64,000 nucleotides of DNA, taken from assembly GCF_900143055.1 (NCBI RefSeq), contig NZ_FRCW01000008.1, positions 1 to 64,000 on the forward strand, given 5' to 3'. The notes beneath the pieces were generated by a model. That model saw only the letters and a list, made by a program, of their open reading frames with translations, did no database searches and was not told the origin of the DNA. This DNA is from Fibrobacter sp. UWR3 (GTDB taxonomy: Bacteria > Fibrobacterota > Fibrobacteria > Fibrobacterales > Fibrobacteraceae). The translations under genes and the position numbers were made by a program. Positions within the stretch are counted from its first letter, which is position 1. The number at the start of each line of letters is the position of its first letter. Positions 21,944-54,906 of the stretch are shown one piece after another.

Positions 21944-21996
21944 CTTTCCCCGCAAATTTTTTTTCCAGAAAATAGCCTTTCCCCGTAAATTTTTTA
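21938..21996. repeat. 33-bp tandem duplication
   Basis: AATAGTCTTTCCCCGCAAAT (from 21,938) and AATAGCCTTTCCCCGTAAAT (from 21,971) are 33 nt apart and differ at two positions, each followed by T residues. The second copy overlaps the stop codon of the GAF-HlyD gene. The rest of 21,697-21,993 holds only the DUF4143 remnant. Confidence 0.6.
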
Positions 21997-25761: not shown

Positions 25762-27234
25762 TTAGGTCGACGAGCTGCTCGAACTGGACGCTGTTGCGGC
25801 TGAACTTGACGACTCGGGCACCCCGCTGCTGGAGCTTGCCGTGGAATCAGCCACGCTGGAAGAAGACGGCGGGACTTCGAGTTCGGTCATGATGAGCAGG
25901 TGTTCGAGGTAAAGCCCGTTCTCCGCGTAGACGGTGACGTCCATGCCCACGGAATCGCCCGGTGTCCTCGCGTCGAGAATCTTCTCGCGCATCTGCACGA
26001 AAAGCGTATCCTTGCTTATCCAGGCGTCCGCCGTGGCGAAACTCCCGTTGCACGAGATGGTTCTCGATGCCTTCGCGATAAAGTGCCACTGCACGCGTTC
26101 CACGTTCTTGCTCAGTTTTTCGGAGAACTTGACCCACAGCGTGTCGTCGATGGAGAAACTGGACCTGTATTTCTCGTTTTGCGGCCAGGCGTTGCTCGTG
26201 ACCGCGTAGAGCCCGCGGTCGGTGGTGAACGCGGAGGCCCCGTCGAGCGTGATTTCGATGCGCTCGTTCTTCTTCTTGGTGTAGGCGACTATCGTCGTCG
26301 AGAACTCGGTGCTTGCGGGGAGAGGCCTGTCGTGCTTGAGGAACAGCGTGTCACCCTTGACCTGCGGCGTCAGGATGAAGGCCGAGTCGCCGGTCATGCT
26401 CACACCCAGGTTGTTTTCGGTAATCGCCTCGTTGAAAACGTAGTAGGGGACCGCGAGGGGCGATACGTTCTTGTAGCCCTTCTGGTCGGTATCCATGACG
26501 TTGCTCGCCTTGATGCGGAACGGGACAGTGATGGAAGTGTCTTGCGGCAGGTAGGCACGGCCGATGTCCTTGCTCGATTCGGCGGCGAGCCTCGGGAGCA
26601 CCGTGGCGGGCAGGGTGAAGCGCAGGCCGTTGTGGGTGTAGGGGGCGATGTTCAGCAGTAGCCCCGAATCGGCGGGGAGCCCCTCGAACTCGAACTTGCC
26701 CAGGGAATCCGTCTTAGTGCTGAAGGAATCCTCGTCGAGGTTGATGTAGGAAGTGTCGGCGTGGGTTATCCAGACCTTTGCCTTTTGGACGGGGAGGGCG
26801 GCGCCCGTCTGCGGGTCATGTATGTAGTATTCGCCCGTGATTCCCGCGTTCAGGGGGCTGAGGCGAATTATGTTGCTCACGCTCGCCACTATCCCGTGCA
26901 TCGATGAGGATTCGTTGGTGGAACCCACCGTGCGCACCTTGGGGGCGTAATGGAGCGTGTCCTTGCCTTTTACCTTTGTGTAGCTGAACGAAAAGCTTAT
27001 CGAGCCGTAGGGGAGCCTGTCGATGAAGAAGGCCCCGTCCTCGTCGGTGGTGGCCATCAGCGTTTTGCCGTCGGCAACCTGGTAGCTAATGGTGGCTCCC
27101 TCTAGCCCCTTGCCGTTGCTGGCGTCGAGCACGTAGCCTGAAAATTCCCACTTGGAATAGTCGTCGCTTTCGGAATCCGTGACCGAGCATGCGGCCAGGA
27201 AAAGCGCAAAAAGAAGGGTGACTAGTTTGTTCAT
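25762..27234 (-). CDS. Lipoprotein with carboxypeptidase-regulatory-like domains and poly-Ser tail
   Basis: 490 aa. Lipobox LAAC at Cys16. Residues about 28-100 are a carboxypeptidase-regulatory-like/Cna-B-like domain (FSGYVLDASNGKGLEGATISY, TDEDGAFFIDRLPYGSISFSF); a second (about 130-215, AKVWITHAD, TDSLGKFEFEGLPADSG) follows. The middle and C-terminal parts are beta-rich with Ig-like strands, and the last 30 residues are Ser-rich. First gene of the operon with HlyD, TolC and GAF-HlyD, with zero spacing to HlyD. A role as a surface-retained partner of the secretion system is inference from context. Confidence 0.75.
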   Translation of the reverse strand: MNKLVTLLFALFLAACSVTDSESDDYSKWEFSGYVLDASNGKGLEGATISYQVADGKTLMATTDEDGAFFIDRLPYGSISFSFSYTKVKGKDTLHYAPKVRTVGSTNESSSMHGIVASVSNIIRLSPLNAGITGEYYIHDPQTGAALPVQKAKVWITHADTSYINLDEDSFSTKTDSLGKFEFEGLPADSGLLLNIAPYTHNGLRFTLPATVLPRLAAESSKDIGRAYLPQDTSITVPFRIKASNVMDTDQKGYKNVSPLAVPYYVFNEAITENNLGVSMTGDSAFILTPQVKGDTLFLKHDRPLPASTEFSTTIVAYTKKKNERIEITLDGASAFTTDRGLYAVTSNAWPQNEKYRSSFSIDDTLWVKFSEKLSKNVERVQWHFIAKASRTISCNGSFATADAWISKDTLFVQMREKILDARTPGDSVGMDVTVYAENGLYLEHLLIMTELEVPPSSSSVADSTASSSSGVPESSSSAATASSSSSSST

Positions 27235-29220: not shown

Positions 29221-29239
29221 GGGCTGTCTTGAACAGCTC
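29221..29239 (+). promoter_or_regulatory. Leader hairpin before the giant gene
   Basis: GGGCTGT, 5-nt loop, ACAGCTC (one G-U pair), 12 nt before the ATG at 29,252. Could affect translation of a very costly protein or be a weak terminator of the FISUMP gene; no T run. Confidence 0.3.
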
Positions 29240-29251
29240 GCTGGGGTTGAC

Positions 29252-37700: not shown

Positions 37701-40700
37701 TGTTGATGGCAAGTTTTGGTTCACGCTTTCGGCTAAGTTGCTGACAAATGGCGAATTTGATTTGCTGATTGATTGTACAAGTGAAGATGCTAAGGGGTTA
37801 GAATTTGGCGCCGAAGTCGAAATTGTCGGTGACGGAATTCGGTTCGATCTCGGAATCTGTGGGGCTGAAGGTGAAAATGAAGGCTTGCTGAAGAATCTGA
37901 TTAAGGTTGGGGAGAACGGAGATAACGCGTTTGTTTATGGCAAGGCGTGCCTGAAGGGCTCTTTGGGCAAGAACTCGGATATTTCGCTGAAGAATTTTGA
38001 CGCCAGTACGCTTGAGCCGGAGTTTAGGTTCCCTATTGCCGTTTATGGTAAATTACCCATAACGGTGCTTGATGTATCTATGGGTGATATTATACTAGGC
38101 AAGTGGAACGGGACGGGGGTCCATTTTGATAAAGGAAATGTCAGTGAATGTAGGGCTGATGTTGATTTGGCCTTGAATGCCTTGTTTAATAATTCTGAAA
38201 ATGAAGCGGATTATGCCGGTCTTTATGTTCTGGATAAAAAGGAAATACCTTCGTTCCAGTTGATTCTTGATAAAGAACCAAAATCGGGAGAAACCCCCTT
38301 TGTCGCCGATCTCAGTTCTGTAAGGCAAGGAATTATTGATTTGGCAAACGGCAATGTGAGCTGGTTCGATAAAATCAAACTTGGCATCACGGCGCTCAAT
38401 ACGCTTTTCGAAACACTTGAAGCTGGCATCAATACCAATCTCGGGAAAACTATAACGTCGGTTCCTGTGGTGGGCCCCACTTTGGGAGCCGGTGTTGATT
38501 TCCTCAGCGTCTTGAAGGACAAGGTCCTTGAGCCGTTCTCTAATTTTGTCTATGAATCGAGCGGTCTTACGGTAGAAATGGTCGCCGAAAAGATGAACGA
38601 CTTGTTCGACGCCTATTTCCGGGAAAATGCAGCATTGCTCGATTCGTTATTGTTGCCGGAAGGTGATTCGGAGTCCGAAATTAGCGAATGGAAGCGTGTT
38701 GGCGGAGCGGGGACCTGGTATCGTTCGACAAATAACTCTGCCGAATGGTTCTTCCAGTTGGGGGGCTCTTACGATTGGGGCACATCGCTCGGGCTCGATT
38801 TCGGGTTTCCGGGGCTTGGGCTTAAAGCCGATGGCGGCCTTGACCTCAAGTTGGATTGGAGCCTCGACTTTGGTTTTGGTATATCCGAGACGGACGGTTT
38901 CTACTTCATATTCAATGAAGGTAACGAAATCAATGTGACCGCATCGGCGGAATTGAATGCCGATATCAATGGCGCGCTTGCCGGGCTCGGCCTTTCACTG
39001 CAAACCCAAGGCGGTGACAACCATGCTGCCGTTGGGCTTGGCTTCGGCTTGAACCTTGCTGATTTTGACGAAGGAAAAGTATTGGGAAAGTTGGAATTGA
39101 AGGGCTCGGAACTTGAACGGCTGAAGGTCTCGAACGATTTAAGTTTGAGTGGTTCTGACGAAAAAACGCTTGATAGGGGGATTGGAAAGGTCGCGTTCTC
39201 CAGTGCGCTTTCTAAGCTTGAGTTCTCCTATGCGGCGTCTGTAGATGTCTTTGCCAGCATGCTGGTTGGGTTTGGGCGCGATGTGGAACACCCCAATACG
39301 CCTGCAAAGTTCCCCAATATTTCCGGTGCGTTCGAGTTCGTGTGGTCAAAGACGAACGGTAGTTCGGGCGATGGATTGACGACGCTTGGCTTTAGCAACC
39401 TTTCGCTTGACCTGGGTTCGTTTATCGATGGCGTGCTTGGCCCTATCGTATCGAAAATCCAGAAGGTCGTGGAACCCATGGAACCGCTTATCGACTTCTT
39501 GACGACTCCGTTCCCGGTGCTCAAGGATGTCGGAATTTCCATTACGCCGCTCGAACTTGCCAAAAAATATGGCGGCGGCAACTTCGACGATTCCATGATC
39601 AAGGCCATCAATAGCCTGATTTCGATGACCAAGCAGATTTCTGCCATGAAGAAGAATGGCCTGAATATTGACCTTGGCGATTTCATGCTGGTTGGTGGAG
39701 ATGGTGACGAATTTAAAGCAAAAAGTTTCCTTGAGGGGTCTTCGTCAAGTAAGTCTCTTGATTCCTCATTGTCTACTTATGCGAAAAAATTGGAGAAGTC
39801 CTCCGAAATCACCGCTCAGGCGTCGAATGCCCTTGGCGGGCAGGGCCTGAATGTCGGCGAAGGTGGGTGGGACTTTATCTGGAACCATCCGACGGACATC
39901 TTCAAGATGCTGATGGGCCAGGACATCGATTTGGTGTATTATGACATGCCCAAACTCTCGTTCAACTTTGACTGGGATACTTTCGTGAGCATCTGGGGAC
40001 CGCTCGGTGCGCGCCTGGGGGTCACGTTCAGCGCTTCCATCGACCTGTCGTTCGGCTACGATACGCTCGGCATCCATCAGTGGATTGAAAGCGACCGCAA
40101 GGATTACGGTAGCCTGGTGAACGGGTTCTATGTGGGTGACCGCGACAAGGACGGAAACGACATCAACGAACTCTCGTTTTATGGTGGCCTTACGGCTGCG
40201 GCAGAAATCAATGCCGGTGTCAAGGCCGGTGTCGGTGGCGGTGTCGGTATCAATGTCGCGTTCGACCTTTTTGACCCGAACAAGGATGGCAAAATCCGCT
40301 TGAACGAAATGTCTCAAATTGTCAAGGCCGATGGCCTTCAGGGCCTGTTCGAAATCAGCGGAAAGATTACGGCAAAACTTTATGCATACGTTGATTTGTG
40401 GTTGACGAAGAAGAAGTGGAACATTACTGGCGATATTACGCTTTTCAGTTTTGAACTGACGCGGAATACAAGTCCGATTTTGGTATCAAAAAATGAAAAT
40501 GGTGATGTGATTGCCCATGTTGGCGACAATTCCAGCAGCAGGCTCTATACCGACGATAAAAACATTTCGCTTGAAGATGGCGATGAAATCCTCGATTTGA
40601 CATTGGACAAAAATTCAGTTGGCAGCCTCGATATTGAATCCGGGAAAACATTCTTTATTAATTCAAAAGAGGGTGTGGATAAATTAACGCTGTCTAGTGA

Positions 40701-43700
40701 TGTTCCTGTAGAATATAATCTTGAAATACGTGGTGGCGAAGGTGATGACGTAATCGACCTGTCGGGTTTAAAGATTGCGGATGGTTATTATGTCGTCATC
40801 TGGGGCGGTGCCGGAAATGATAGAATCAAGGCGGCCGAAGGCCTGAATATCATCTTTGGTGACGATGGCGTGTATACGCCGCTTGACAAGGATGATAAAG
40901 AGAAGGATAAAGGAGCGAAGCTAGATGATGGTGATAGATTTGTCGTGGAAGGCAAATTTAATGCAGGTGTTTCCGGTGACGATATCATCTTGGGCAACAA
41001 GGGTAGCCAGGTTATTATTGGTGGCGTAGGATCTGATAAGATTCGCGGCAAGGAAGGCGATAATATTATTCTGGGCGATGCCGGACATGTCGAATTCGTG
41101 GTCAACGATAATGGTTCCATTGACATGGAAAGTGTCTCGACTGCCCGCACGGATACCGACTTGGATGGCGGTAATGATTACCTATTTGGTGGTGCTGGTG
41201 TAGACTATATTGTGGGTGGTGCCGGTAGCGATTTTATCGACGGTGAAGAAGGGAGCGATACCATCAAGGGCGAACGTGGCGACGACTATATCTTCGGTGG
41301 CCTAGGTGATGATACGATTGGCGGCGGAAGCGGCTCCGATATTATTTTCGGTGACGGATTCTGGTCCGATTCATTTGATGTCAGTAAGTCTTTCGATTTA
41401 GATGTGTTCAATGACGATTTCAAGAAGGCTCATGAAGGCAAGTTTGATGGTGGACTTTCTTTGAAACGTTGGCTTGATTTGGATGACGATGGCTTTGACT
41501 TCCTAGATATAGAGAAAGAAATTTCTGAACCAGAAAACATTCCTGAATATGGTGAAGATACAATCAACGGAGACGAAGGTGATGACCTTATCTTTGGCGA
41601 TGCCGGTGACAAGGAAGGAAAAAAGGACACAATTAAGGGCGGTATCGGAAACGATGTCATTGACGGCGACGGTGGCGGCGACATTATTAGTGGCGGAATC
41701 GACAACGATGTCATCTATGGTGGTAGCGGAAGCGATATTATAGATGGTGGCGCCGGAAATGATACGATTTATGGTGACGATGGCGCTAAGGTTTATACGA
41801 CCAATGAGGAGGTGTTCGAAAAAGACCCCGTTGTCTTTGGCGAAAACTTTGGCCTGAACGAAAAGATATACAAAGACGCTAAGTCGACAAGTGAAGGTGC
41901 TGGTGACGATGTGATTACCAGTGGCCTGGGCATGGACTTTGTTGACGGCCAAGAGGGAAACGATACTGTTATTGTTAACCTTTCGGGTGGCCACGATGTG
42001 AATTACACCAATGTAATCGATTCGGGCGACGAAAATGAAAATAACGTCCTCACCATTGAAGGAACCGAACTTGACGATAAGCTGCTGATGCGAATGAATA
42101 ACGATAAATCGCTCGGGTTTGTCGCTCTGTTGCCGGAGGGAAATAACAAAAATATCGAAAGGGTGAACTTCAATAAGGGAATCAATGAAGTCAACCTGAA
42201 CGCAAATGGTGGTAACGATTCTATTACCATCGACGGAACGGCTAAATCGACTAATGTCGATGCTGGCGCGGGTAATGACACTATTCGGGTGGGGCAGCTT
42301 TATAATGCCGACATGGGTGAGGCGAATGCGACGACGAACGTAAAGAATGATGACTTGTTCAACACCGTTGCCGTAAATACGGACCATGGAGTTAAGTACT
42401 TAAGCGACGGTGTTTCTGCTGGCTCTACATTGAATATTGAGGGCGCAGCTGGTGACGATACCTTTGCTTTGCTGCATAATGCTGGCGAAGAATTGAAGGT
42501 GTCTGGCGGAAATGGAAATGACGGCTTTTCCATGTATGCGTTCTCGGATAAAAATGGGTTAGCGATCGAGAATGGGGTCATATCAATGGATGGTGGCAGG
42601 GGCATCGATTCCTTGTTGGTCCGTGGCTCCGAAAGCAACGATCTTGTCGTTGTGTCTAAAGATGGCCTGTTGAGTTCTTTTGGCGCTGTTCAGGTCGCCG
42701 GTGTGGAAACGAAGGATTTCGATGCTGCTGGTGGTGAAGACATATTCAATGTTGTCGGTAGCAGCGAAAAGGAAACTATCGTTCTCAATGGTGGCAATGG
42801 AAGCGATACCGTTGTTGTCGGTGGTGGCTTGACCGAATCGGAAATCCTGCGCGGTTCAAATAACCAGGGCCAGAACGCTTCCTTGAAATACGAAATCATG
42901 GACGACGAAGGCCTAGCGGATGATGAAAAGGATCGGTACGATATCAGTGCTGCTGGAAAGACTTTCGAAGAGAAGTATTCCATTATCAATACTTCTAGTG
43001 TTCCCTCTGTATTTGTTTCTTCTTCGGATACTTCTATTCTTCCGGTGAAGGCTAAATATGTGACAGAAGGGGATGAGAATGGTGTGCTTGCCTTCTATGT
43101 TGGTTGCTCTGGAGATTTGAAATCGGGAACTGTCTCGGTTAAATTGAGGGCCCCCAAACTGACCACCTCGGAATTGCAGAGTGGAGATGCTGGCATTCTG
43201 ATTTGCTACGAAGACGAAACAGGTCGAACTGAATATTCTGATTCATGTGATATTCAATTCAAAACAAGTGGTAAATCCGTAAAAGTGTATGTCCGGGCTA
43301 TTTCTGACGGACTTTGCGAAGGCAACCTTTTGAAGTCGATTACGATTTCGAGTACCTGGTACAAGGGAGATGGGTCGGATCCGGTTAATCTTGAGGATTC
43401 GGCCAAGTCTGCCAGTGTCATAGTGAAAGATAGCACCGATCCTAGCACGAAAAATAAGAATCTGTTTAGCTGGTCTGAGGTGTTCAAAATTGATGCCTCC
43501 ACAAGTGAGATTTCTTTGGAGTCCATCGGTTCTGATTTTGCCAAAGAAAATATTCACGCTTACTATATAGATGTGGATGCTGAACCTGAATTGCACTTTA
43601 ACACTGAGACTGAAAAGTGGGAAGTTGTCGGTCTGAGCGAAGGCACGCTAGTTGTCAATTATCGTTCAAACAAGGCGCAAATCGATAGTTCCAAGATTCG

Positions 43701-46700
43701 CATTGCATACGATAATATCGAGTCTTTGGATAGGGTTAAATTGGACGAGAAGATTATCCTTAGCAAAACGGATTACGAGAATCCGCAAAAAAGGAAAGGG
43801 GCGAATGTCGATACGAGCGTGTATTATGAACTGGCTGGCAACATGCTTGTGTTCTTCAATAGTTCTACTCGCCAGCTTGTGACATTGCATGGCGTGTTGT
43901 CTGTTGATAGCAAAATGGGGCCGAACATCGAAAACGATGAAGTTCTTGAACAACACGAAGATAAATGTGACTTCCTTACGATTAAGGAACATACTCATAC
44001 CTTAGTGGAGGCTACGAAAAACGCTTCGGAAGCTACTCCAGAAGTGTTCACCTATACAGAATTTACCGTGGAGTATAATGGAACGATTGCCGATAACAAA
44101 AAGATGCGTATCAAGATAACGGTTGAAGATGCGTTGCGTTCGATTGGGGGGGATAAATCCGCAGAGGATTTGTACCTCAAGTATGAAGATCAGGAAGGTG
44201 ATACCGTTATCGTTACGCTTGAAAATGGATCCACGAGTTCGACAATTAGATTGGTAGCCAAATGTGATACTGTAAACGAAGAGTATGGTCTCGTAGATGC
44301 CAAATCGTCGGGTAGTGGAAATAAACTTGATGATGTTAAGGGGGCCATATATGCATACGGAAAGGGCGAATCTATAGAGGTTGATTACGACAATCTGGTT
44401 ATGCTTAAGTATAATCATTTTGTCGATAAAGATGGCAAGGTAATAAATTCTTATAATGAGTCTAGTGGAACTGAGGAGGAAGAATCTCCAGCTCCAATGA
44501 CCGACTCTGATACAGATGATCTTAATTCGGTCGACCGAATCATGGTGAACAACTATGACTCTGATGCTGCTGCGACATCTCAATTAAGGTCGTTAGACGG
44601 AAGAGACCTCTATTACGCTACTCGTGATTATGAAGGCTTGTACGACCTCTACAAGGGTATTGAATCTTCGATGCTGAAGCAAGATTATGCGCTCAGATTT
44701 ACATTGAGGAATCCGTCTACCACAACGCTTCTGACTTACTTTGGTGTTTCTATGTCTGAGTTTGAATTTGGTGAATTCAACCTTGGAACGGGAGCCGATA
44801 AAGTCGTTGTCTCCAAGACTCTTCATCGTGATGATGGCTTCCAGACATTCACGGTCGTGAACACCGGCGACGGAAATGATGTGAGCGACGACGAAATTAC
44901 CGTCAATAGGTATGATAGCGAAAATGATGGTCAGCTGGTAATCAATGCCCAGGGCGGAAAAGACAAAATCACCGCAACGGGAAGCAAGATAACCAAGGAT
45001 GGCATGGTTGTTTTGGGCGGTGCCGGAGCAGATGAAATTAAGGTTGATTCTGGAGTGATTGCTTTTGGTGACAAGGGTAACATCCAGTACAAGGATGGCG
45101 ATACGGTCGTTACAGAACTCGGTTATTATGGGGAAGATGTCGGTGAGCATAAGGCTGGCGATATTATCCGGACCGAGACTGGAAAACTGCAGACTGATGG
45201 TGTTGTCCGTGGTGCTTCATCTATTGCGTCCGTAATGCCTAGCGAAGGTGATGCTGATGATATTACCGCCAGCGGACAGAACAGTGTTGTTATCGGCGGT
45301 TCTGGTAGCGACAAAATCACGGTAACCGGTGAAAAGAACGTTGTTCTTGGCGACAATGGTGTGGTGAACTTCCATAACGAAGGTTCTGCTGAATCTTGGC
45401 GCGAAAACAATATCACGACGAGTCTGGAAAAGGTTCAGACGATAAATAATTCTGTTGGTGAAACAGATACCATTAATATTGCCGGCAGCCATAACGTTGT
45501 CATGGGCGGAAATGGTGGTGACAAAATCACCATCGGCGAATCCGGCAAGGAAAACGGTATAGACAATGTTGTCCTTGGCGATGGTGGTGTCGCTGAATTC
45601 ACTCAGGGCGTTGCTACGACCGATAATTTCATGGTCAATGCCGCTATCAAGTCTGTGAAAACGGAAGATGATAGCGATGGAGCGCGTGACGAGATTAAAA
45701 TCTATGGCGGTTTGAATACCGTTATGGGTGGTGCCGGAAACGACGATATTACTATTGGCGACGAAGGCAAGGACGAAGATCATCAAAATGGCAATGAAAA
45801 CGTCGTCCTTGGCGATGGCGGCTCTTATGTTGTCGACAAGGATAATGGCGAGGTGACTGTTAAAACATCTCGAGAAGAGATTGATGACGCGGTCGTTATC
45901 CATGGCGGTGAAGATACCATCAAGATTTATGGCGGTCAGAATACGGTCATGGGCGGTGCCGAAGGCGATACAATCGACATCTTCGGAGCCGACAACATCG
46001 TTCTCGGCGATGGTGGCGAATCCATCCGCGAATGGAATGCGGATAATGAGGTCTACGATTCCATCAAGTCTGTAATGACGACTGACGACGATAATGGCGG
46101 TGTTGATACCGTAAACATCCATGGCGGCAAGAACGCTGTGATGGGTGGTGCCGATGGGGATACGATTACTATTGGCGACGGAAAAACCAGTGATGGCGAT
46201 GAAAACGCTGAAGATGATAATGAAAATCAGAATGGTAATGAAAACGTCGTCCTTGGCGATGGTGGCTCGTATGTAGTCAATAAGACGACTGGCGAGGTGA
46301 CTGTTAAAACATCTCGAGAAGAGATTGATGACACCGTCGTTATCCATGGCGGTGAAGATACCATCGCAATCCATGGCGGTCAGAATACGGTCATGGGTGG
46401 TGCCGAAGGCGATACAATCGACATCTTCGGAGCCGACAACATCGTTCTCGGCGATGGTGGCGAATCCATCCGCGAATGGAATGCGGATAATGAGGTCTAC
46501 GATTCCATCAAGTCTGTAATGACGACCGACGACGATAATGGCGGTGTTGATACCATAAACATCCATGGTGGCAAGAACACCGTGATGGGTGGTGCCGATG
46601 GCGACAAGATTAATATCGGTGACGAAAGTCAGGATAACGGTCGTGAAAACGTCGTCCTTGGTGATGGCGGCTCCTATGTTGTCGATGAAGAGAACGGCGA

Positions 46701-49700
46701 GGTGACTGTTCAGACTTCTCGTGATGTCGATGACGAAGGAAATGTCGTTATTCATGGCGGTCACGACATCATCGATATTCAAGGCGGCCAGAATACGGTC
46801 ATGGGCGGTGCTGAAGACGATGAAATCGATATTTATGGTGCCGACAACATCGTTCTCGGTGACGGTGGTATCGCTACCCGTGAGTGGAATGATAATCAAA
46901 AGATCTTCGAGGATATTAAGTCCGTCGAGACGACCGATGACGATAATGGCGGTATCGATACCATCAACATCTATGGCGGTAAGAACGCCGTAATGGGTGG
47001 CTTTGCTGGTGATATCATTACTATCGGTGAAGAGGACGGAAACGTCAGTGACCATAACATCGTATTGGGTGATGGCGGCGAGTATAATAACGAGGCTTCT
47101 GATTCTGCCTATATCAAGACCCAGAGCGATGGCATTGGTGGCGAAGACCACATAACGGTCTATGGCGGCCACAATGTCGCTATGGGTGGCTTCGCTGGCG
47201 ATGAAATCGAAATTCACGGTGGCGAAAATGTTGTTCTCGGTGATGGCGGCATTGCCAATTACAATAAGAATCCTAAAGCGGAAACGGTGAATGAATTCAT
47301 CAACTCCGGACTTCGTGATGTTGCAACCACGAGCGATGGTATCGGTGGCCATGACGATATCGATATTTTTGGCGACAAGAACGTCGTGATGAGCGGTGCC
47401 GATGGTGATATAATCGATATTGCCGGTAATGACAACGTTGTCGTTGGCGACGGCGGCCGCTATGACATCTATGAAGACTACAGGACGGTCAAAACCAAGT
47501 CTGAACAGGACGGTGGCCACGATGTTATTCATACCAACGACGGCAAGAATATTGTGATGGGCGGTATGGACGCCGACGAAATCACCACGGGCGACGGAAA
47601 CGATATCATTCTTGGCGATGGTGGCTTTGCTAAGGTCGATAATGACTTTAATGCGCTCTTTGTCACTAATGAGAATATCGACGTCGGTGAAGATCTCGGA
47701 ACGGCCGGTGCCGATACGATCATTGCGGGCAATGGTGACAACGTTGTCTTTGGCGGTCTCGGTAACGACGATATCACGACGGGCAACGGCCAGGATGTGG
47801 TGTTCGGCGATAACGCCTATGCGACATTCCGCGGCAATGCGAACGAGGCGTTCGAACAGGTGGGCGACCGCCAGAATGTCCCGGATGTATACGAAGAGGC
47901 TACGCTCAGTTTCAACTTCCAGGGCGCATCGCAGACGGGCCTCAACGCGACGGATTACGTCGGCGCTCCCGAATTTGAAAGCCGCAACTGGAACAACATC
48001 TCGGGTTCGCTCGCGGGTACTTACGGCAACGACGACCGTGAAGTCGTGAACATGGACAATCTCGATGTTACGGGCGAGAAGTCTGCCGACGAGACCCGCA
48101 CGCGTGCAAGCGGCGTGAGCGTGTCTTATGGTGGATACGAAAGCCATCGCAACACGAGTACGGACAACCGCATCAACCTGCAGGCCTACAACCTCGGCCT
48201 CTGGAATATGCAGGGCGACAAGAATGCTAAACTCATGAATTCGGGTCTGATGACGACGGCCCCGAACGCTCAATGTGGCAGCAAGTTCGAAGTGGCTGTG
48301 GACGGCCTCGCGCAGTATTTCACCAGCTATAAGGTGGTTGTCTATCTCGACATCCCGGATTCACATTCCGCATACGGTAGCAGTGTGCGCAAGGTGAGCC
48401 TGTTCGTGGGCGGTTCCGAAGAGCCGTATTCGGCCTATTACGTGAACGATGCAGAGGGACACAACTTTGACGGTTCCTTCGTGCAGGCGACTGCGACGAG
48501 CGCCGACACTGCCGAAGCCGCGAACTACGTGGTGTTCGATGTGCCCGCCGGTGCAATTGCCGACAACTTCCGCGTGGTTATCGAGGAAGCGTATCCGAAC
48601 AATGCCCAGAACGGCAAGAACCTCGCGGGCATCGCTGGCATCCAGGTCAGGGGCACGCTCCACAGGCAGGATGTCGCCGCCACCACGGACATCGACTTCG
48701 GCGGCGATGATATCATCAAGACTGGCCTCGGCGACGATATCGTAGTGGGCGGGACCGGCAGCGACGATATCACCACCTTCGGTGACGAACGCTACGGCAT
48801 CTATGACAACGACGTCGTCTTCGGCGACAACGCGAAGATCCTGCTTACCGACCGCGACAGCGACGAATCTACGGCTTCGACCATCTCGACCGCGGAATCT
48901 GTTGCCGTTACGAATATCGATACGGCGACCTACGACGACACCATCAATACCGGCGACGGTAACGATACCGTGGTGGGCGGCATCGGCGCGGACACGATCA
49001 ACGCGGGTGCAACGGAAGCTGCCGAGGCCATGCTCGACGGCGTTAAGGCCGCATCGGTCAACTTCACGCTCGAGAATGCCGACGCCTCGTTGAAGGTGGG
49101 AAATGGCGAGACTGCTGGTGTGGTTGCCGACACTGCCTGGTGCAATATGTACGTGAAGAACGGCGAACTGCATGATGTCGATAACTACTCTTCGCACAGC
49201 GTCAAGGGTATCAATGTGACAATCTCTTCGTATCAGCAGAACAGCGGCTGGTGGAACGAGATGTATGCGGGCAACTACGCGATGACGCACGAGAATAGTT
49301 CTGAACTTGACGGCGATACCGCGAATTCCAAGTTGTTCAACGGGTATCTCGCGTCGCAGCAGCACGACGAGATTAAGCTCACGCTCGACAGTATCGACCA
49401 GTTCCGTGCTCAGAGCGGGCTTGCCGCGGGCGACGCCTGTGACATCTATGTGTATCTCGGCGCTGACAATGGCGATACCGATACTTACAACTATATTTAC
49501 CAGGTTTCGCTGAACAATGGCGAGAAGCGGTTCTTGAATGACTGGACCGGCTACAACTTCGATGGCGACTACAGGGAGGCTACCTGTGATTCCTACGAAG
49601 ATGCGATGTCTGCCCTGCACGAAGGTTCCGCCGTCCGCATGGAGATTGTTGGTAATTATGTGGTGTTCCGCAACTTCACCGGGAACCGTGCCGAAATCCG

Positions 49701-50769
49701 CATAAGGAACGTATTCACGAGTAGCGGGCAGAACCCGAAGAACCTGCCCGTAATCAACGCGGTTCAGGTTGTTGCGGGCGCAGGCAAGGATGCTGCCGCC
49801 ATCGGTGGCGACCACGACAAGGACCTCGCCTATGGTGATGACGCGAAGCTCGTGTTCGACTTGGATGTGCCTTTCGATGCTGATGTCCCGAATGTCTCGG
49901 AATACAAGAACCGCGTTATCGAGGCCAAGTCTGTTGCCATCGAACACGATGCGGTGACTTCGATTTCGACCAATGACACCATCACCACGGGCAAGGACCG
50001 CGACGTTGTCGTGGGTGGCGAAGGTGCCGATGACATCACGATGGGCGCTGGCGACGATATCGCCCTCGGCGGTAGTGCGAACCTCGTGCTCGAGCACAAC
50101 AACCCGCTGGGCGTGTTCACTCCCAATACCGAGATTGCGCTCGACCAGCATACCATCAACACGACGCAGCACCAGAACTACCTTGACAACGACAACGCGA
50201 ACGTGTGGCAGTTCCAGAGCAGGCTCGACCAGAACCTCATCCAGGGTATCGATACTTTCGTGTCGAACGAAAACGACCGCAAGGATACCATCGATGTTGG
50301 CGAAGGCAGGAACCTCACGTCGCAGGGCTCCGACAGCACTGCGCAGCTTGTGGTGCCGAAACCCGTGATTGTCGATGACGACGGGCAAGAGGGCAGTGGA
50401 GAAGCCTCTACGCCGACGCCTCCGGTTGTGGCTCCAGACGACGGAACGGTGGTGATTGACCAGGAAGGAACTTCGACCTTGGTTGAAATTGCTGCCGGCG
50501 AGACTGTGGAAATCGTGATTACGGATTGGGACGAGGGCAACCAGTATTACCATCCGAACGTATTCCTGCAGTTGAACTGCTCCGACAACACGAGGCATAA
50601 GCTGTCTGTCACCTGGGATGGTCAGCAGACTGACCCGACGGTGTATTTGCAGAACTATGCAGAATTCGACATTCCTGATGTGGCAACTGTCGTGGGTGAA
50701 CACAAGATTGTCTTGAGAATCACTTCTAGAGACTCCATCTCGCTCATGGCAACTGTTGCTCATCGGTAA
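34756..50769 (+). CDS. Giant LEPR-XLL/RTX surface protein, main part (continuation)
   Basis: 5,337 aa in the open frame; the apparent TTG start overlaps the previous stop and is probably not a real start. The first 2,000 residues continue the beta-rich units with helical motifs (VKIPVINKSVSDLVDV, TSVPVVGPTLGAGVDF, FPVLKDVGISITPLELAKKYG). Two EF-hand-like loops lie near 40,140 (DRDKDGNDINE) and 40,270 (DPNKDGKIRLNE). From 40,720 come RTX-type Gly/Asp nonapeptides (GGAGVDYIVGGAGSDFIDGEEGSD), a spacer domain at about 43,000-44,800 and a second repeat array (44,930-47,830) of GGxNTVMGGAEGDTIDIFGADNIVLGDGG units. Two copies of a domain of about 250 aa (47,890-48,670 and 49,040-49,780) alternate with RTX runs. 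A beta-rich end of about 110 aa follows. Expected to be calcium-stabilised, secreted and cell-bound or released. Confidence 0.85.
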   Translation: MTALPDENKKYTVFALDDSKVNIESELNIEVVKQGEGSELATVNVKAGPLTDGQLSSSKENDLKAELTSTNRICLTSEQKFEFASSADAKAFAELKLSSANLQTCFEAKVSDNKVVLYLVGREDSSEDKAALTINLSVMDGFDNAEDKIAFVNECFSLQSNNDKPLNFSNDDNPLNFISLTGSEVSIAAGNSIMNKFGLYVVDVIMDEDGKSVTSIKFGCDARRLQNYDASKKDEQGFKLTNEGGATTYMRISEELRGNGLEGYNAGVSQKVLLTFSKGGESKQVETKVEAYTLEDLAEKRVQELEGELKDVDGSDLSDYFKATYTKVTDDRDQFFQVMIAPINEAENVLANTLKIFEGYLEEDDLNAWNAEYESKPEEDVISRLQKVLDDDVLQDNKGLLHIVAKEGSNHKYKLAIEVVPFTNTVKVINREITVSVGSTSVSVNVGDCATVSSVANAIEDAIKENVSLEGNDISVSVVGKNIVFTSNNDVKITCDALGRSEEKLTDFVVKSSDTPIEIDFESDVGTIDDNTTIGSVIGKINEKLKDCDLSICYNEEGADDKYLDHLELVGDNPFSIENIGTSIILKQLGFSDAVAVKGADGKYRIFGSALSGMDFSKAFSLKGVSVYANMNLSLGTQIEELKNNISFVDNETKNELKLEFTDTNVRNYNVGGFLEVGDKHYRITDVQNGYIAVSRTSYEGEELSDETPKSSDFWKNATYVASASASLGFVGMDVFASGKIGLNANFELEKTDDPEDDNFFGFKIKDTSKINVTAGETEVIAGEIDEPTGETEGDAGGAEDETPKMFELNAYADVFGSATKLATGEIAVISENKSLRVSPEFVVTDGYKEIVDQFKNFSVEQLLAVLDGLVTRLASITEKTDVKIPVINKSVSDLVDVTKDLQKVIAEMRQQKVTSVQQFVNYMNKHLVDSNFSNEDGDLIKLRYENGNLLFDFNIVKAFSVRHRFDFGSSAMGINGNTNLNVDGKFWFTLSAKLLTNGEFDLLIDCTSEDAKGLEFGAEVEIVGDGIRFDLGICGAEGENEGLLKNLIKVGENGDNAFVYGKACLKGSLGKNSDISLKNFDASTLEPEFRFPIAVYGKLPITVLDVSMGDIILGKWNGTGVHFDKGNVSECRADVDLALNALFNNSENEADYAGLYVLDKKEIPSFQLILDKEPKSGETPFVADLSSVRQGIIDLANGNVSWFDKIKLGITALNTLFETLEAGINTNLGKTITSVPVVGPTLGAGVDFLSVLKDKVLEPFSNFVYESSGLTVEMVAEKMNDLFDAYFRENAALLDSLLLPEGDSESEISEWKRVGGAGTWYRSTNNSAEWFFQLGGSYDWGTSLGLDFGFPGLGLKADGGLDLKLDWSLDFGFGISETDGFYFIFNEGNEINVTASAELNADINGALAGLGLSLQTQGGDNHAAVGLGFGLNLADFDEGKVLGKLELKGSELERLKVSNDLSLSGSDEKTLDRGIGKVAFSSALSKLEFSYAASVDVFASMLVGFGRDVEHPNTPAKFPNISGAFEFVWSKTNGSSGDGLTTLGFSNLSLDLGSFIDGVLGPIVSKIQKVVEPMEPLIDFLTTPFPVLKDVGISITPLELAKKYGGGNFDDSMIKAINSLISMTKQISAMKKNGLNIDLGDFMLVGGDGDEFKAKSFLEGSSSSKSLDSSLSTYAKKLEKSSEITAQASNALGGQGLNVGEGGWDFIWNHPTDIFKMLMGQDIDLVYYDMPKLSFNFDWDTFVSIWGPLGARLGVTFSASIDLSFGYDTLGIHQWIESDRKDYGSLVNGFYVGDRDKDGNDINELSFYGGLTAAAEINAGVKAGVGGGVGINVAFDLFDPNKDGKIRLNEMSQIVKADGLQGLFEISGKITAKLYAYVDLWLTKKKWNITGDITLFSFELTRNTSPILVSKNENGDVIAHVGDNSSSRLYTDDKNISLEDGDEILDLTLDKNSVGSLDIESGKTFFINSKEGVDKLTLSSDVPVEYNLEIRGGEGDDVIDLSGLKIADGYYVVIWGGAGNDRIKAAEGLNIIFGDDGVYTPLDKDDKEKDKGAKLDDGDRFVVEGKFNAGVSGDDIILGNKGSQVIIGGVGSDKIRGKEGDNIILGDAGHVEFVVNDNGSIDMESVSTARTDTDLDGGNDYLFGGAGVDYIVGGAGSDFIDGEEGSDTIKGERGDDYIFGGLGDDTIGGGSGSDIIFGDGFWSDSFDVSKSFDLDVFNDDFKKAHEGKFDGGLSLKRWLDLDDDGFDFLDIEKEISEPENIPEYGEDTINGDEGDDLIFGDAGDKEGKKDTIKGGIGNDVIDGDGGGDIISGGIDNDVIYGGSGSDIIDGGAGNDTIYGDDGAKVYTTNEEVFEKDPVVFGENFGLNEKIYKDAKSTSEGAGDDVITSGLGMDFVDGQEGNDTVIVNLSGGHDVNYTNVIDSGDENENNVLTIEGTELDDKLLMRMNNDKSLGFVALLPEGNNKNIERVNFNKGINEVNLNANGGNDSITIDGTAKSTNVDAGAGNDTIRVGQLYNADMGEANATTNVKNDDLFNTVAVNTDHGVKYLSDGVSAGSTLNIEGAAGDDTFALLHNAGEELKVSGGNGNDGFSMYAFSDKNGLAIENGVISMDGGRGIDSLLVRGSESNDLVVVSKDGLLSSFGAVQVAGVETKDFDAAGGEDIFNVVGSSEKETIVLNGGNGSDTVVVGGGLTESEILRGSNNQGQNASLKYEIMDDEGLADDEKDRYDISAAGKTFEEKYSIINTSSVPSVFVSSSDTSILPVKAKYVTEGDENGVLAFYVGCSGDLKSGTVSVKLRAPKLTTSELQSGDAGILICYEDETGRTEYSDSCDIQFKTSGKSVKVYVRAISDGLCEGNLLKSITISSTWYKGDGSDPVNLEDSAKSASVIVKDSTDPSTKNKNLFSWSEVFKIDASTSEISLESIGSDFAKENIHAYYIDVDAEPELHFNTETEKWEVVGLSEGTLVVNYRSNKAQIDSSKIRIAYDNIESLDRVKLDEKIILSKTDYENPQKRKGANVDTSVYYELAGNMLVFFNSSTRQLVTLHGVLSVDSKMGPNIENDEVLEQHEDKCDFLTIKEHTHTLVEATKNASEATPEVFTYTEFTVEYNGTIADNKKMRIKITVEDALRSIGGDKSAEDLYLKYEDQEGDTVIVTLENGSTSSTIRLVAKCDTVNEEYGLVDAKSSGSGNKLDDVKGAIYAYGKGESIEVDYDNLVMLKYNHFVDKDGKVINSYNESSGTEEEESPAPMTDSDTDDLNSVDRIMVNNYDSDAAATSQLRSLDGRDLYYATRDYEGLYDLYKGIESSMLKQDYALRFTLRNPSTTTLLTYFGVSMSEFEFGEFNLGTGADKVVVSKTLHRDDGFQTFTVVNTGDGNDVSDDEITVNRYDSENDGQLVINAQGGKDKITATGSKITKDGMVVLGGAGADEIKVDSGVIAFGDKGNIQYKDGDTVVTELGYYGEDVGEHKAGDIIRTETGKLQTDGVVRGASSIASVMPSEGDADDITASGQNSVVIGGSGSDKITVTGEKNVVLGDNGVVNFHNEGSAESWRENNITTSLEKVQTINNSVGETDTINIAGSHNVVMGGNGGDKITIGESGKENGIDNVVLGDGGVAEFTQGVATTDNFMVNAAIKSVKTEDDSDGARDEIKIYGGLNTVMGGAGNDDITIGDEGKDEDHQNGNENVVLGDGGSYVVDKDNGEVTVKTSREEIDDAVVIHGGEDTIKIYGGQNTVMGGAEGDTIDIFGADNIVLGDGGESIREWNADNEVYDSIKSVMTTDDDNGGVDTVNIHGGKNAVMGGADGDTITIGDGKTSDGDENAEDDNENQNGNENVVLGDGGSYVVNKTTGEVTVKTSREEIDDTVVIHGGEDTIAIHGGQNTVMGGAEGDTIDIFGADNIVLGDGGESIREWNADNEVYDSIKSVMTTDDDNGGVDTINIHGGKNTVMGGADGDKINIGDESQDNGRENVVLGDGGSYVVDEENGEVTVQTSRDVDDEGNVVIHGGHDIIDIQGGQNTVMGGAEDDEIDIYGADNIVLGDGGIATREWNDNQKIFEDIKSVETTDDDNGGIDTINIYGGKNAVMGGFAGDIITIGEEDGNVSDHNIVLGDGGEYNNEASDSAYIKTQSDGIGGEDHITVYGGHNVAMGGFAGDEIEIHGGENVVLGDGGIANYNKNPKAETVNEFINSGLRDVATTSDGIGGHDDIDIFGDKNVVMSGADGDIIDIAGNDNVVVGDGGRYDIYEDYRTVKTKSEQDGGHDVIHTNDGKNIVMGGMDADEITTGDGNDIILGDGGFAKVDNDFNALFVTNENIDVGEDLGTAGADTIIAGNGDNVVFGGLGNDDITTGNGQDVVFGDNAYATFRGNANEAFEQVGDRQNVPDVYEEATLSFNFQGASQTGLNATDYVGAPEFESRNWNNISGSLAGTYGNDDREVVNMDNLDVTGEKSADETRTRASGVSVSYGGYESHRNTSTDNRINLQAYNLGLWNMQGDKNAKLMNSGLMTTAPNAQCGSKFEVAVDGLAQYFTSYKVVVYLDIPDSHSAYGSSVRKVSLFVGGSEEPYSAYYVNDAEGHNFDGSFVQATATSADTAEAANYVVFDVPAGAIADNFRVVIEEAYPNNAQNGKNLAGIAGIQVRGTLHRQDVAATTDIDFGGDDIIKTGLGDDIVVGGTGSDDITTFGDERYGIYDNDVVFGDNAKILLTDRDSDESTASTISTAESVAVTNIDTATYDDTINTGDGNDTVVGGIGADTINAGATEAAEAMLDGVKAASVNFTLENADASLKVGNGETAGVVADTAWCNMYVKNGELHDVDNYSSHSVKGINVTISSYQQNSGWWNEMYAGNYAMTHENSSELDGDTANSKLFNGYLASQQHDEIKLTLDSIDQFRAQSGLAAGDACDIYVYLGADNGDTDTYNYIYQVSLNNGEKRFLNDWTGYNFDGDYREATCDSYEDAMSALHEGSAVRMEIVGNYVVFRNFTGNRAEIRIRNVFTSSGQNPKNLPVINAVQVVAGAGKDAAAIGGDHDKDLAYGDDAKLVFDLDVPFDADVPNVSEYKNRVIEAKSVAIEHDAVTSISTNDTITTGKDRDVVVGGEGADDITMGAGDDIALGGSANLVLEHNNPLGVFTPNTEIALDQHTINTTQHQNYLDNDNANVWQFQSRLDQNLIQGIDTFVSNENDRKDTIDVGEGRNLTSQGSDSTAQLVVPKPVIVDDDGQEGSGEASTPTPPVVAPDDGTVVIDQEGTSTLVEIAAGETVEIVITDWDEGNQYYHPNVFLQLNCSDNTRHKLSVTWDGQQTDPTVYLQNYAEFDIPDVATVVGEHKIVLRITSRDSISLMATVAHR
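40720..41790 (+). repeat. First RTX-type calcium-binding repeat array
   Basis: Gly/Asp-rich nonapeptide-like coding repeats, for example GGAGNDRI, GSDKIRGKEGDNIILGD, GGNDYLFGGAGVDYIVGG and GDDYIFGGLGDDTIGGG. These match the hemolysin-type calcium-binding motif GGxGxDxUx. Confidence 0.85.
45788..46660 (+). repeat. 444-bp near-identical tandem DNA repeat inside the giant gene
   Basis: The segment from 45,788 recurs from 46,232 (offset 444 nt) with near identity over about 310 nt (45,850-46,180 versus 46,294-46,624), including TCTCGAGAAGAGATTGATGA in both. A more diverged third unit follows from about 46,645. Confidence 0.8.
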
Positions 50770-50777
50770 TCTGTTCT

Positions 50778-52964
50778 ATGGTTCTCGATCAGCAGCGCAA
50801 GATATTCCATGAGTCGTGGTACCGCCTTGCGGGGAGCAAGATCTCCCTCAGGGCGAGTGTCCGCGTCCACAGGCAGACCTACCGCGGTGTACTTTGGTAC
50901 GTACTTTACGAACCGTTTACGAACCAGTATTACCGATTGCCTCGCGGGGCATACGACTTCGTGTCGCGCCTTTCGCCCGACAAGACGGTGGGTGAGGTGT
51001 GGAGCGCCATGCTCAAGGGTAGCGAAGGCGAGATGCCCGGCCAGGGCGAAGTCATCGAGATGCTTGCGCAGCTGTACCAGGCGAACATGCTCATGTACAC
51101 GGGCGTGGACGATGGCGCAAAGCTGTTCGAGCGCAACCGAAAGCAGAAGCAGAAGAAGGTCAAGGCCTCGCTCTTGAACATCTTCTTCTTGAAGGTGCCA
51201 CTGTTCGACCCCGATGCCCTGCTCAATAAGCTGCGCTGGCTTATCCGTTTCTTGCTGAGCAAGCCTTTCGCGCTCGTGTGGCTCGCGACAGTTATCGTCG
51301 CCGCGAAATACGGTGTCGAGAACTTCGATGCCCTCAAGGACCAGAGTTCGGGATTCCTTTCGCCGTCGAATATCGGCTGGGTCTACGTGTGTACCGTGTT
51401 CGTGAAGCTCTTGCACGAATTCGGCCACGCGAGCGTCGTCAAGCGCTACGGGGGCGAGGTGCACACGCTGGGCGTGATGTTCATGCTGCTCGTGCCTCTT
51501 CCGTATGTGGATGCGACGGTGAGCTGGTCGTTCCGCAAGAAGTCGAGGCGCGCTCTGGTGGGGGCCGCGGGCATGCTCACGGAATTCTTTATCGCCTCGG
51601 TCGCCCTGATTGTCTGGGCGAACCTTGGCGGTGGACTCGCCAAGAATCTTGCGTACAACGTTGTTATAATGGCCTCGGTTTCTACCGTGCTGTTCAATAT
51701 CAACCCGCTCATGCGATTCGACGGTTACTATATCCTGACCGATTTGCTGGACATGCCCAACCTGCAGCAGAATTCGGTACGCCACCTCAAGTACCTGCTG
51801 GAACGTTACGTGTTCTTCAAGCGCGATGCCGAGGCGGTTGCCGAGACCTGGCTCGAACGCGTAATTTATTTGGTTTACGGAGTCGCCTCGTCGATCTACA
51901 GGATTTTCCTGTTTACGGGGTTCATCGTCACCATCTCGCAGCACTACCTGATACTTTCGTTTATCATGGGAGCCCTCCTTTGCCTGACGATGGTGATTAT
52001 GCCGGTGGGCAAGTTCCTCAAGTACATCTTCGCAAGCCCGGGGCTTGCGCTGGTGCGTAACCGAGCCGTTTTCGTGACGGTTCTGGTGCTCGGCAGTGCC
52101 ATATCGCTGCTGTTCTACCTGCCCGTTCCCGACACGTTCAAGGCTCCCGGCGTTATAGAGGCGTCGCGGTACGAAAACACGACGGTGGGCGAGGGCGGCC
52201 TTGTTGCCGACGTGTTCCGCGGCGAAAAGGCGAAAGTCAAGAAGGGCGATACGCTGATGGTCCTCGAAAACCGCGAACTCGATTTTTCGATTGAGGAAAA
52301 GCGCGCTCAGGTGAGGGAGGCCGTGCAGGCCTACTACCAGGCGCTGGACCGCGCTCCCGAAAATATGCTGCCGCTCGAAAAGAGGCTGGGCGTGCTGAGG
52401 CAGGAGCTGGGCGACCTGCTGCGCTACCGCGACAAGTTGACGCTTGTGGCCCCGATGGACGGCATTTGGGACGTGAAGAACCCGGACGAGTACGTGGGCC
52501 GCTTTATGCAGCGAGGCGACTCGATGGGGATGGTGCTCGACACGACCGCATTCGACTTTTTGGCGGTGGTGAGCCAGGAGGAGGTCTCTCGCCTGTTCAC
52601 GGAAAAGCCGCGCAAGGTTTCGGTGCGGCTCAGTGGCGACGCCTTTACCGAAATCCCTGTCGATAGCGTTTCGGCTATTCCTGCGGCGCGTGACCGCTTG
52701 CCTTCCGCTGCGCTCGGGTGGCTTGGCGGTGGCGAAATCGAGACGCGTGCCTCGGGCGACGCGGGGGATGGGTATGGCGAACGTACTGCGGAACCCGTCT
52801 ACCTGGTGCGTGCGACAATCAACAGGGACGATGCGGCCCTGTCGGGCATTGACTGGGCGCACGGCCGTTCGGGCAAGATTCGTTTCCATTTGAAGGATAC
52901 TCCGCTTGCCCTGCAGGGAATCCGCAAGGCGCGCCAGGCCCTGCAAAAGTACTACAAGATGTAA
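50778..52964 (+). CDS. PqqD-like / M50 zinc metallopeptidase / HlyD fusion
   Basis: 728 aa. Residues about 10-110 resemble a PqqD-type winged-helix peptide-binding domain (YYRLPRGAYDFVSRLSPDKTVGEVWSAML). The central membrane part has the M50 (site-2-protease) motifs HEFGH (H213, E214, H217) and NPLMRFDGYY (from about residue 309, third zinc ligand Asp), with several hydrophobic helices on both sides. From about residue 450 a periplasmic HlyD-type part follows: a lipoyl motif (GGLVADVFRGEKAKVKKGDTLMVLENREL), a coiled coil and an adaptor barrel. Eight nt separate it from the giant gene and one nt from the SecA-like gene. It is expected to be the inner-membrane component or a processing protease of the export path. 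Confidence 0.88.
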   Translation: MVLDQQRKIFHESWYRLAGSKISLRASVRVHRQTYRGVLWYVLYEPFTNQYYRLPRGAYDFVSRLSPDKTVGEVWSAMLKGSEGEMPGQGEVIEMLAQLYQANMLMYTGVDDGAKLFERNRKQKQKKVKASLLNIFFLKVPLFDPDALLNKLRWLIRFLLSKPFALVWLATVIVAAKYGVENFDALKDQSSGFLSPSNIGWVYVCTVFVKLLHEFGHASVVKRYGGEVHTLGVMFMLLVPLPYVDATVSWSFRKKSRRALVGAAGMLTEFFIASVALIVWANLGGGLAKNLAYNVVIMASVSTVLFNINPLMRFDGYYILTDLLDMPNLQQNSVRHLKYLLERYVFFKRDAEAVAETWLERVIYLVYGVASSIYRIFLFTGFIVTISQHYLILSFIMGALLCLTMVIMPVGKFLKYIFASPGLALVRNRAVFVTVLVLGSAISLLFYLPVPDTFKAPGVIEASRYENTTVGEGGLVADVFRGEKAKVKKGDTLMVLENRELDFSIEEKRAQVREAVQAYYQALDRAPENMLPLEKRLGVLRQELGDLLRYRDKLTLVAPMDGIWDVKNPDEYVGRFMQRGDSMGMVLDTTAFDFLAVVSQEEVSRLFTEKPRKVSVRLSGDAFTEIPVDSVSAIPAARDRLPSAALGWLGGGEIETRASGDAGDGYGERTAEPVYLVRATINRDDAALSGIDWAHGRSGKIRFHLKDTPLALQGIRKARQALQKYYKM

Positions 52965-52965: not shown

Positions 52966-54906
52966 ATGAACCTTACCGACAACTATCGACTGACATCTTG
53001 CAAGCAAGTGAAAAAGATCCCGACGGGCCTCGATGCCCTGATGTCGCGGATGGTCGGAAAGTTCAAGGGCCGCAGGGGAGTGCTGCGCGGGCTTTTGAAA
53101 GATGCCCGGAGTATCGACCTGTGGAGCCGTTCGTTTACGCAGCTCGACGATGCCTCCCTGAAAAAGCGCATGGCGGACATGCAGGCCGAACTCAAGCGCC
53201 CCTTCGCGAAGAGCGCTCTCCTGAAATCGTTTGCCCTGGTGCAGGAGGCCGTGTCGAGGACTCTCGGGTACCGGCCGTATATCGAGCAGTTGACGGGAGC
53301 GCTTGCGCTTTACCGCGGGTATGTCGCCGAAATGTCGACTGGCGAGGGCAAGACGGTTACGGCTGCCATGTGTGCCGCTGTGCGGGGCTGGAGCAAGCGC
53401 CCGTGCCACGTGATTACGGCGAACGACTACCTGGCTGCACGCGATGCCGAAATCATGAAGCCGCTGTATTCGTATTGCGGGGTGAGCGTCGGGGCGGTGA
53501 CGGGTACGATGAAGCCCGCGGAGCGGCGCGAGGGGTATTCGGCCGACGTGACTTATTCTACGGCGAAAGAAGTGTTGGCAGATTTTTTGCGCGACCGGAT
53601 TGCGATGGGGGATTTTCAGGATTTTGGCAAGCGGCTCGTTAGCGCCACGACCGTGAATATGGAACGCCTGAAGGCGAACCTGGTGCAGCGCGGGCTTTAT
53701 ACGGCCATAGTCGACGAGGCCGACAACGTGCTGATTGACGAGGCCGTGACCCCGCTGATTATTTCGCGCGAAAAGAAGAACGACGAGTTCAACGAGGCGT
53801 GCCGCCTTGCATACAAGGTATCCGAAAAGCTGAAGCGCCGTACGGATTACGAGGTGGACTACAAGAACCGCACCATACGCTTTGTTGTCGATATGGAATC
53901 CCGCCTGGACGATATCGGCGAAGAGATTTCGTTTGCCCGCGCCGGTTTTTTGAAGGATTTGGTGCGGCAGGCGCTTGTGGCCCGCGAACTGTTCGAGTGT
54001 GGCCGCCATTACGTTGTCGAGGAAGGCAAGGTGGTGATTGTCGACGAATCGACAGGCCGCAAGATGCCCATGCGCTCGTGGAACGGCGGGTTGCACCAGA
54101 TGATAGAAATCAAGGAAGGGCTCGAAATGAGCGGCCTCAAGGAGACGGAGGCGCGAATGAGCTTCCAGCGCTTCTTTAGGCTCTACAGGAATTTCTCGGG
54201 CATGACGGGTACCGGCAAGGAGGCCTCCGCCGAATTCTGGACAATCTATGGTGCTGCCGTGGTGTGCATCCCGAATCACCGCAAGAGCAAGCGAAAGGTA
54301 TCGCACCTGAAGACTTTTGCGAGCAAGGACGCCAAGCGCCGCGCCATCGTGAAGGAGGTCATCCGCATGCACGAGAAGGGCCGTCCCATCCTGATTGGCA
54401 CGAAGGACATTGACGAAAGCGAATACCTTGCGTCGGCCATCGAATCGAAGGGCCTGCATTGCCGAATTATCAATGCGGTTCGCTGCGAGGAAGAGGCTGC
54501 CATCGTGGCCGATGCGGGCAAGTTCGGGGCCATTACGGTCGCGACGAACATGGCCGGCCGCGGTACCGACATCAAGATTCCGGACAAGGTCAAGAAAATC
54601 GGCGGGCTCCATGTGATTGCGACGGAGTGCAACCCCTCTTCGCGCATTGACCGCCAGCTTTTCGGCCGTTCGGCGCGCCAGGGCGACCCGGGGAGCGTGA
54701 GCCACTACGCCTCGTTCGAAGACGATGTGCTGCGCCGTAACCTGCCGAACGCGCTTGCCGTGGCGTTCAGGCACCTTGGACCCTTTTCCGCCCTTTCGGT
54801 GCGCTGGGCGCAGCATCGGGCGGGCAGAAAGGCTTACCAGAGCCGGCTTTCGGTACAGCGCACCGATACGTGGCTTGAGGATTCGCTCGGGTTCAGCGGG
54901 AACTAG
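52966..54906 (+). CDS. SecA-like ATPase, shortened paralog
   Basis: 646 aa, against about 900 for SecA. Nucleotide-binding motifs are intact: MSTGEGKTV (residues 123-131, Walker A Lys129), HVITANDYLAARDAE, VDEAD (249-253), NFSGMTGT, TNMAGRGTDIKI and FGRSARQGDPGS (from F566). The segment between the DEAD motif and the second motor domain resembles a preprotein cross-linking region. After the last motif only about 75 residues remain, so the C-terminal helical wing/scaffold domains and the zinc finger of SecA are largely missing. Start ATG 52,966 lies one nt after the M50-HlyD stop. The context suggests a dedicated motor for the giant protein, in place of an ABC ATPase. Confidence 0.88.
   Translation: MNLTDNYRLTSCKQVKKIPTGLDALMSRMVGKFKGRRGVLRGLLKDARSIDLWSRSFTQLDDASLKKRMADMQAELKRPFAKSALLKSFALVQEAVSRTLGYRPYIEQLTGALALYRGYVAEMSTGEGKTVTAAMCAAVRGWSKRPCHVITANDYLAARDAEIMKPLYSYCGVSVGAVTGTMKPAERREGYSADVTYSTAKEVLADFLRDRIAMGDFQDFGKRLVSATTVNMERLKANLVQRGLYTAIVDEADNVLIDEAVTPLIISREKKNDEFNEACRLAYKVSEKLKRRTDYEVDYKNRTIRFVVDMESRLDDIGEEISFARAGFLKDLVRQALVARELFECGRHYVVEEGKVVIVDESTGRKMPMRSWNGGLHQMIEIKEGLEMSGLKETEARMSFQRFFRLYRNFSGMTGTGKEASAEFWTIYGAAVVCIPNHRKSKRKVSHLKTFASKDAKRRAIVKEVIRMHEKGRPILIGTKDIDESEYLASAIESKGLHCRIINAVRCEEEAAIVADAGKFGAITVATNMAGRGTDIKIPDKVKKIGGLHVIATECNPSSRIDRQLFGRSARQGDPGSVSHYASFEDDVLRRNLPNALAVAFRHLGPFSALSVRWAQHRAGRKAYQSRLSVQRTDTWLEDSLGFSGN

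Follow-up and report, generated by a model that had tools for sequence, protein, structure and literature searches.

A short SecA-like ATPase as candidate motor of a TolC-dependent exporter of giant LEPR-XLL proteins

Results

Organization of the locus

The window, by which we mean the whole analysed stretch of 64,000 nucleotides from Fibrobacter sp. UWR3 (contig NZ_FRCW01000008.1), carries the components of a putative secretion system in two groups. On the plus strand, a giant gene is followed by the gene of a composite protein of 728 aa, joining PqqD-like, M50 metalloprotease and membrane fusion (HlyD/MexA/MacA-like) parts (M50-HlyD, 50778..52964), and then by the gene of a short SecA-like ATPase of 646 aa (52966..54906). 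The minus strand carries, between 21994 and 27234, genes for a GAF-HlyD protein (21994..23433, 479 aa), a TolC-like outer membrane factor (23426..24967), a small periplasmic adaptor of the RND_mfp/HlyD type (24967..25761, 264 aa) and a carboxypeptidase-regulatory-like domain protein (25762..27234), the last of which adjoins the system in distant Fibrobacterota too. GAF-HlyD, HlyD and TolC are located about 25 kb away on the opposite strand and the two groups flank the giant gene; in other families of Fibrobacterota, most system genes lie side by side. A FISUMP-domain protein with a serine-rich linker is encoded between both halves of the locus (27587-29191). An ABC-type Walker A motif was found in none of the window frames of at least 150 aa.

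The short SecA keeps the motor and lacks the SecY-facing parts

The short SecA frame runs from ATG at 52966 to the stop codon ending at 54906 and is uninterrupted by stop codons. It consists of NBD1, the preprotein cross-linking domain and NBD2, as reflected by Pfam matches to SecA_DEAD (1.5e-87), SecA_PP_bind (4e-21) and P-loop_SecA (6.2e-48). The Walker A sequence GEGKT (residues 126-130, 53341..53355, plus strand) and the DEAD motif (residues 250-253, 53713..53724, plus strand) are intact; G126, G128, K129, D250, E251 and D253, together with R532, R568, R571 and further motor residues, are invariant among 49 short SecAs. An earlier note on this DNA, made from the letters alone, had stated that all motifs of the DEAD motor are present, and this is borne out.

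No match to the scaffold/wing domain (SecA_SW) appears in Pfam up to E=1. The tail of the short SecA, AQHRAGRKAYQSRLSVQRTDTWLEDSL (54799..54903, plus strand; Q616 and D634 invariant, n=49), corresponds in the alignment to the initial ~30 residues of the scaffold helix in canonical SecA (AQkrvEgrNFeiRKhLleYDdV); a stub of the scaffold is therefore retained. The protein ends there, about 30 residues into the helix, so that it lacks wing, two-helix finger and zinc finger and, in the alignment with long SecAs (one row of which, H_L001, was an off-strand frame and was disregarded), also the linker and the rest of the scaffold. The earlier note had thus judged the loss of wing and zinc finger correctly, both being gone and not just reduced, while the stub is a refinement; of its estimate of about 75 residues following GRSARQGDPGS, the shortness of the tail stands and the figure does not, the actual count being 69.

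Accessory SecA2 proteins of Gram-positive bacteria are likewise second, divergent SecAs residing beside a full-length one; they keep most of the scaffold and wing and work with SecY. The short SecA is far under the cut-off of every NCBIfam SecA and SecA2 model, with matches ending at or before residue ~600. For the SecA2 models, scores and cut-offs in bits are 424/930 (TIGR03714), 404/725 (TIGR04221), 471/1085 (TIGR04397) and 370/1100 (NF012136). With these scores and without wing and two-helix finger, SecA2 identity was rejected.

The closest solved relatives of the short SecA are SecA proteins. Its structure model is weak (mean pLDDT 63, from a 9-row alignment); the PDB matches of this model include SecA, the C-terminally truncated SecA-N68 and the isolated DEAD motor.

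The short SecA is distinct from housekeeping SecA

Full-length secA of the same genome lies on a different contig, inside a frame of 990 aa (G000:C1:43550-44863). Of the 27 system genomes examined, this one included, 24 have a short SecA frame beside a longer one; the remaining three, all of them metagenome-assembled genomes (MAGs), show one SecA frame each. A tree built from 49 short and 38 long SecAs, and no SecA2, separates both sets by a single fully supported branch, and all the short forms, coming from about a dozen phyla, are grouped apart from the long SecAs that those genomes encode. Housekeeping identity, which the earlier note had considered impossible, is ruled out by the second, longer SecA and the separate tree group. 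The split in the tree and the invariant residues of motor and tail further argue that the short SecA is one old and stable protein lineage under selection rather than a product of recent truncation. That it might be a truncated pseudogene or an assembly artefact of housekeeping secA, as its reduced size and a fragmented copy in one member of the genus could suggest, is refuted by a nearly constant length (mostly 640-750 aa) and a common conserved tail across about a dozen phyla, by invariant motor residues and by the position in the tree.

Two minor observations concern SecA diversity. The fragmented short SecA of the genus is found at 6019-6892 of locus L070 (G037:C9). Besides the full-length and short forms, another family of the phylum has one more SecA-like protein, of ~810 aa (L208 in G040:C84; G060:C349), which forms a long branch in the SecA tree.

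The M50-HlyD protein combines three modules

The structure model of M50-HlyD reaches pLDDT of 89.8. Its C-terminal part matches membrane fusion proteins of the MexA/MacA type in PDB, and among the best 50 PDB matches only this fusion-protein part is covered. The metalloprotease motif HEFGH is located at 51414..51428 (plus strand); H213, E214, H217 and also D315 (51720-51722) are invariant in 63 sequences. The nearest NCBIfam models are those of peptide-maturation metalloproteases, daptide_HExxH and LiaK/YydH. Similarly to them, M50-HlyD is a membrane protease of M50-type with HExxH motif, and its N-terminal 409 residues match daptide_HExxH with E of 1.3e-47; the match is nevertheless under the curated cut-off and, unlike these proteases, M50-HlyD is fused to a membrane fusion protein.

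Residues 41-105 (50898..51092, plus strand) form a PqqD-like domain, i.e. a RiPP recognition element fold, according to both profile and model. PqqD was matched in 27 of 41 members of the M50-HlyD family with the best E of 6.5e-9; because the window copy alone gives a marginal 0.068, the assignment is that of the family. This region of the model has the order beta-beta-beta-alpha-alpha-alpha, and a search of PDB sequences with the domain profile matched nothing. In RiPP pathways, the PqqD fold serves to bind leader peptides.

The gene set is conserved across phyla

Scanned with M50-HlyD, bacterial genomes yielded 80 loci, 72 of which, beyond the first eight, represent about a dozen phyla. Among these 72, the short SecA directly follows M50-HlyD on its 3' side in 49 of the 53 loci with enough DNA, and GAF-HlyD is present 5' of M50-HlyD in 54/56. 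Where at least 6.5 kb of upstream sequence was available, TolC was found in 32 and HlyD in 36 of 43 loci, the operon order being TolC-HlyD-GAF-HlyD-M50-HlyD-short SecA. A crude ABC signature was detected in only two of the loci L066-L150. This 3' adjacency argues for the proposal of the earlier note that the partner of this motor is M50-HlyD rather than SecYEG.

Giant LEPR-XLL proteins as candidate cargo

The giant protein of the window begins with a part of 1835 aa (29252..34759, plus strand), in which an LEPR-XLL motif (NCBIfam NF012209, E 5e-7; 29294..29359) is placed ~20 residues from the start. The flank of the motif is basic and a hydrophobic signal peptide is absent. The remainder, 5337 aa with RTX repeats (34756..50769, plus strand), continues in a different frame. 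As relatives have a single long frame, the split at 34650-34760 is a frameshift, either real or originating from assembly. Among LEPR-XLL proteins, the tag is found mostly 10-35 residues from the start and is often preceded by basic residues; the N-termini are mostly devoid of a hydrophobic stretch, and this argues against a Sec signal peptide.

When the window is compared with another genome (G004), the GAF-HlyD/TolC/HlyD region is 98% identical and the N-terminal part of the giant gene cannot be aligned at DNA level (27827-36500 versus L210); the presumed cargo thus looks hypervariable. Open LEPR-XLL frames of 18,984 to 20,466 aa are present in Verrucomicrobiota (G264:C142, G267:C1, G340:C1).

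Distribution of LEPR-XLL follows that of the system. In 195 genomes of Verrucomicrobiota, LEPR-XLL frames of at least 800 aa occur in 13 of the 14 genomes with M50-HlyD, whereas the 181 others have none (Fisher p 2e-19), M50-HlyD being called at E<=1e-150, a threshold fixed after the gap in scores had been seen. With a looser cut of E<=1e-60, comprising all 40 M50-like matches and counting weak short matches, the numbers are 14/40 versus 3/155. Among the searched genomes of the genus of the window, M50-HlyD is present in 20 of 21 with an LEPR-XLL frame of at least 3000 aa, the split giant gene of the window being included in this count, and 17 of 30 giant frames immediately precede M50-HlyD in the same orientation, touching it or within ~1.5 kb. 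Further afield, LEPR-XLL was found in 39 of 49 further system genomes; the ten in which it went undetected are mostly MAGs, and the profile is 24 residues long. Co-occurrence alone is no proof of transport; the evidence as a whole points to the LEPR-XLL giants as the likely cargo.

Discussion

Relation to known systems

Loci of this kind were described by Kamneva, Poudel and Ward (2015, PMC4452313) as "secondary SecA_DEAD" proteins with a type I secretion-related locus, for which the description of the locus names no cargo. According to that description, the secondary SecA_DEAD proteins have no SecA_SW, constitute a clade of their own and coexist with canonical SecA; their neighbours are GAF-HlyD, an M50-like transmembrane HlyD protein, HlyD and sometimes OEP, without an ABC transporter. 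The proteins include META1p2399-2402 of Methylobacterium extorquens AM1. The authors proposed SecA as the ATPase and M50 as the pore and, in the same description, regarded its wider role in biology as entirely unknown (PMC4452313).

The locus of the window agrees with all of these features: a SecA_DEAD protein without most of SecA_SW beside canonical SecA, a cross-phylum clade apart from canonical SecA (in our tree without SecA2), the M50/HlyD, GAF-HlyD, HlyD and OEP neighbours and no ABC transporter. It differs by the arrangement of genes in two groups on opposite strands around the giant gene. Compared with the account of the locus in the 2015 paper, the Fibrobacterota members, a phylum absent from those in its title, the link to LEPR-XLL cargo and the PqqD-like domain on M50-HlyD, which that account does not name, appear to be new. 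In the open-access literature, a search covering LEPR-XLL, PqqD-M50-HlyD and later work on secondary SecA_DEAD brought up no other paper on this system.

Membrane fusion proteins, TolC and RTX-repeat cargo without signal peptide are shared with type I secretion (HlyB-HlyD-TolC). The window locus differs from it by a putative N-terminal tag and an additional protease with PqqD-like domain, and above all by having no ABC transporter; as the latter defines type I secretion, we do not class the system there.

Proposed function

We propose that the short SecA serves as ATPase in a type I-like, TolC-dependent exporter of LEPR-XLL giants, where a SecA-derived motor replaces the ABC transporter, and give this reading a probability of about 60%. 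The giant RTX/LEPR-XLL protein would be synthesised without Sec signal peptide, and the PqqD-like domain of M50-HlyD would bind its N-terminal FxLE-LEPRxLLSAD tag. The core of the short SecA would then dock on M50-HlyD instead of SecYEG and push the unfolded chain through the membrane part of M50-HlyD, whose M50 active site may cut off the tag. Finally, the chain could reach the cell surface by way of the HlyD hairpin of M50-HlyD, GAF-HlyD, the small HlyD adaptor and TolC. All these steps, namely export, binding and cleavage of the tag and physical docking, are deduced from sequence and gene context.

The same components can be read with the protease in the centre. The short SecA would be an unfoldase feeding M50, acting as an intramembrane protease, with membrane or peptide substrates, HlyD and TolC would export the cleaved peptides, and the giants would only be regulated or matured. 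The invariant M50 residues, the PqqD-like domain and the similarity to daptide_HExxH and LiaK/YydH agree with such a role. We consider it unlikely, as the adjacent and co-occurring genes are giant ORFs and not small peptide genes, and the fused adaptor together with TolC suggests that larger material is exported.

Being SecA by sequence and fold, the short SecA might still act at SecYEG on a subset of proteins, in the manner of an accessory SecA2, with its neighbours working downstream in the periplasm; the relationship of the clade to actinobacterial SecA2, as described by Kamneva et al. (PMC4452313), is in line with this. The loss of wing, two-helix finger and most of the scaffold, scores far under every SecA2 cut-off, the tie of the gene to M50-HlyD and a likely cargo mostly lacking signal peptides make this explanation quite improbable. 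A role of the SecA locus in transport of some other cargo, merely co-travelling with LEPR-XLL giants that exit via an ordinary ABC type I system encoded elsewhere, is in our opinion very unlikely. RTX repeats are indeed typical of ABC type I substrates, and a few genomes (G011, G204) encode HlyB-like ABC proteins of nearly full length; yet none of 21 system genomes has a match above the cut-off of the HlyB model, a narrow one, and LEPR-XLL in Verrucomicrobiota is almost never found without the SecA system.

A bolder extension of the proposed SecA-driven export, to which we give somewhat less than even odds, is that the system could represent a secretion class of its own, where a motor derived from SecA and a tag-reading and tag-cutting PqqD-M50-HlyD protein thread proteins of up to ~20,000 residues through TolC, with LEPR-XLL as the export signal. 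If a SecA motor works without SecYEG, the parts of SecA that push would be separated from those needed only for the Sec channel. Through the cargo link, a secretion locus and a sequence tag, both orphans so far, become a single testable system; the link also suggests a possible export route for some of the largest bacterial proteins, with frames of up to 20,466 aa.
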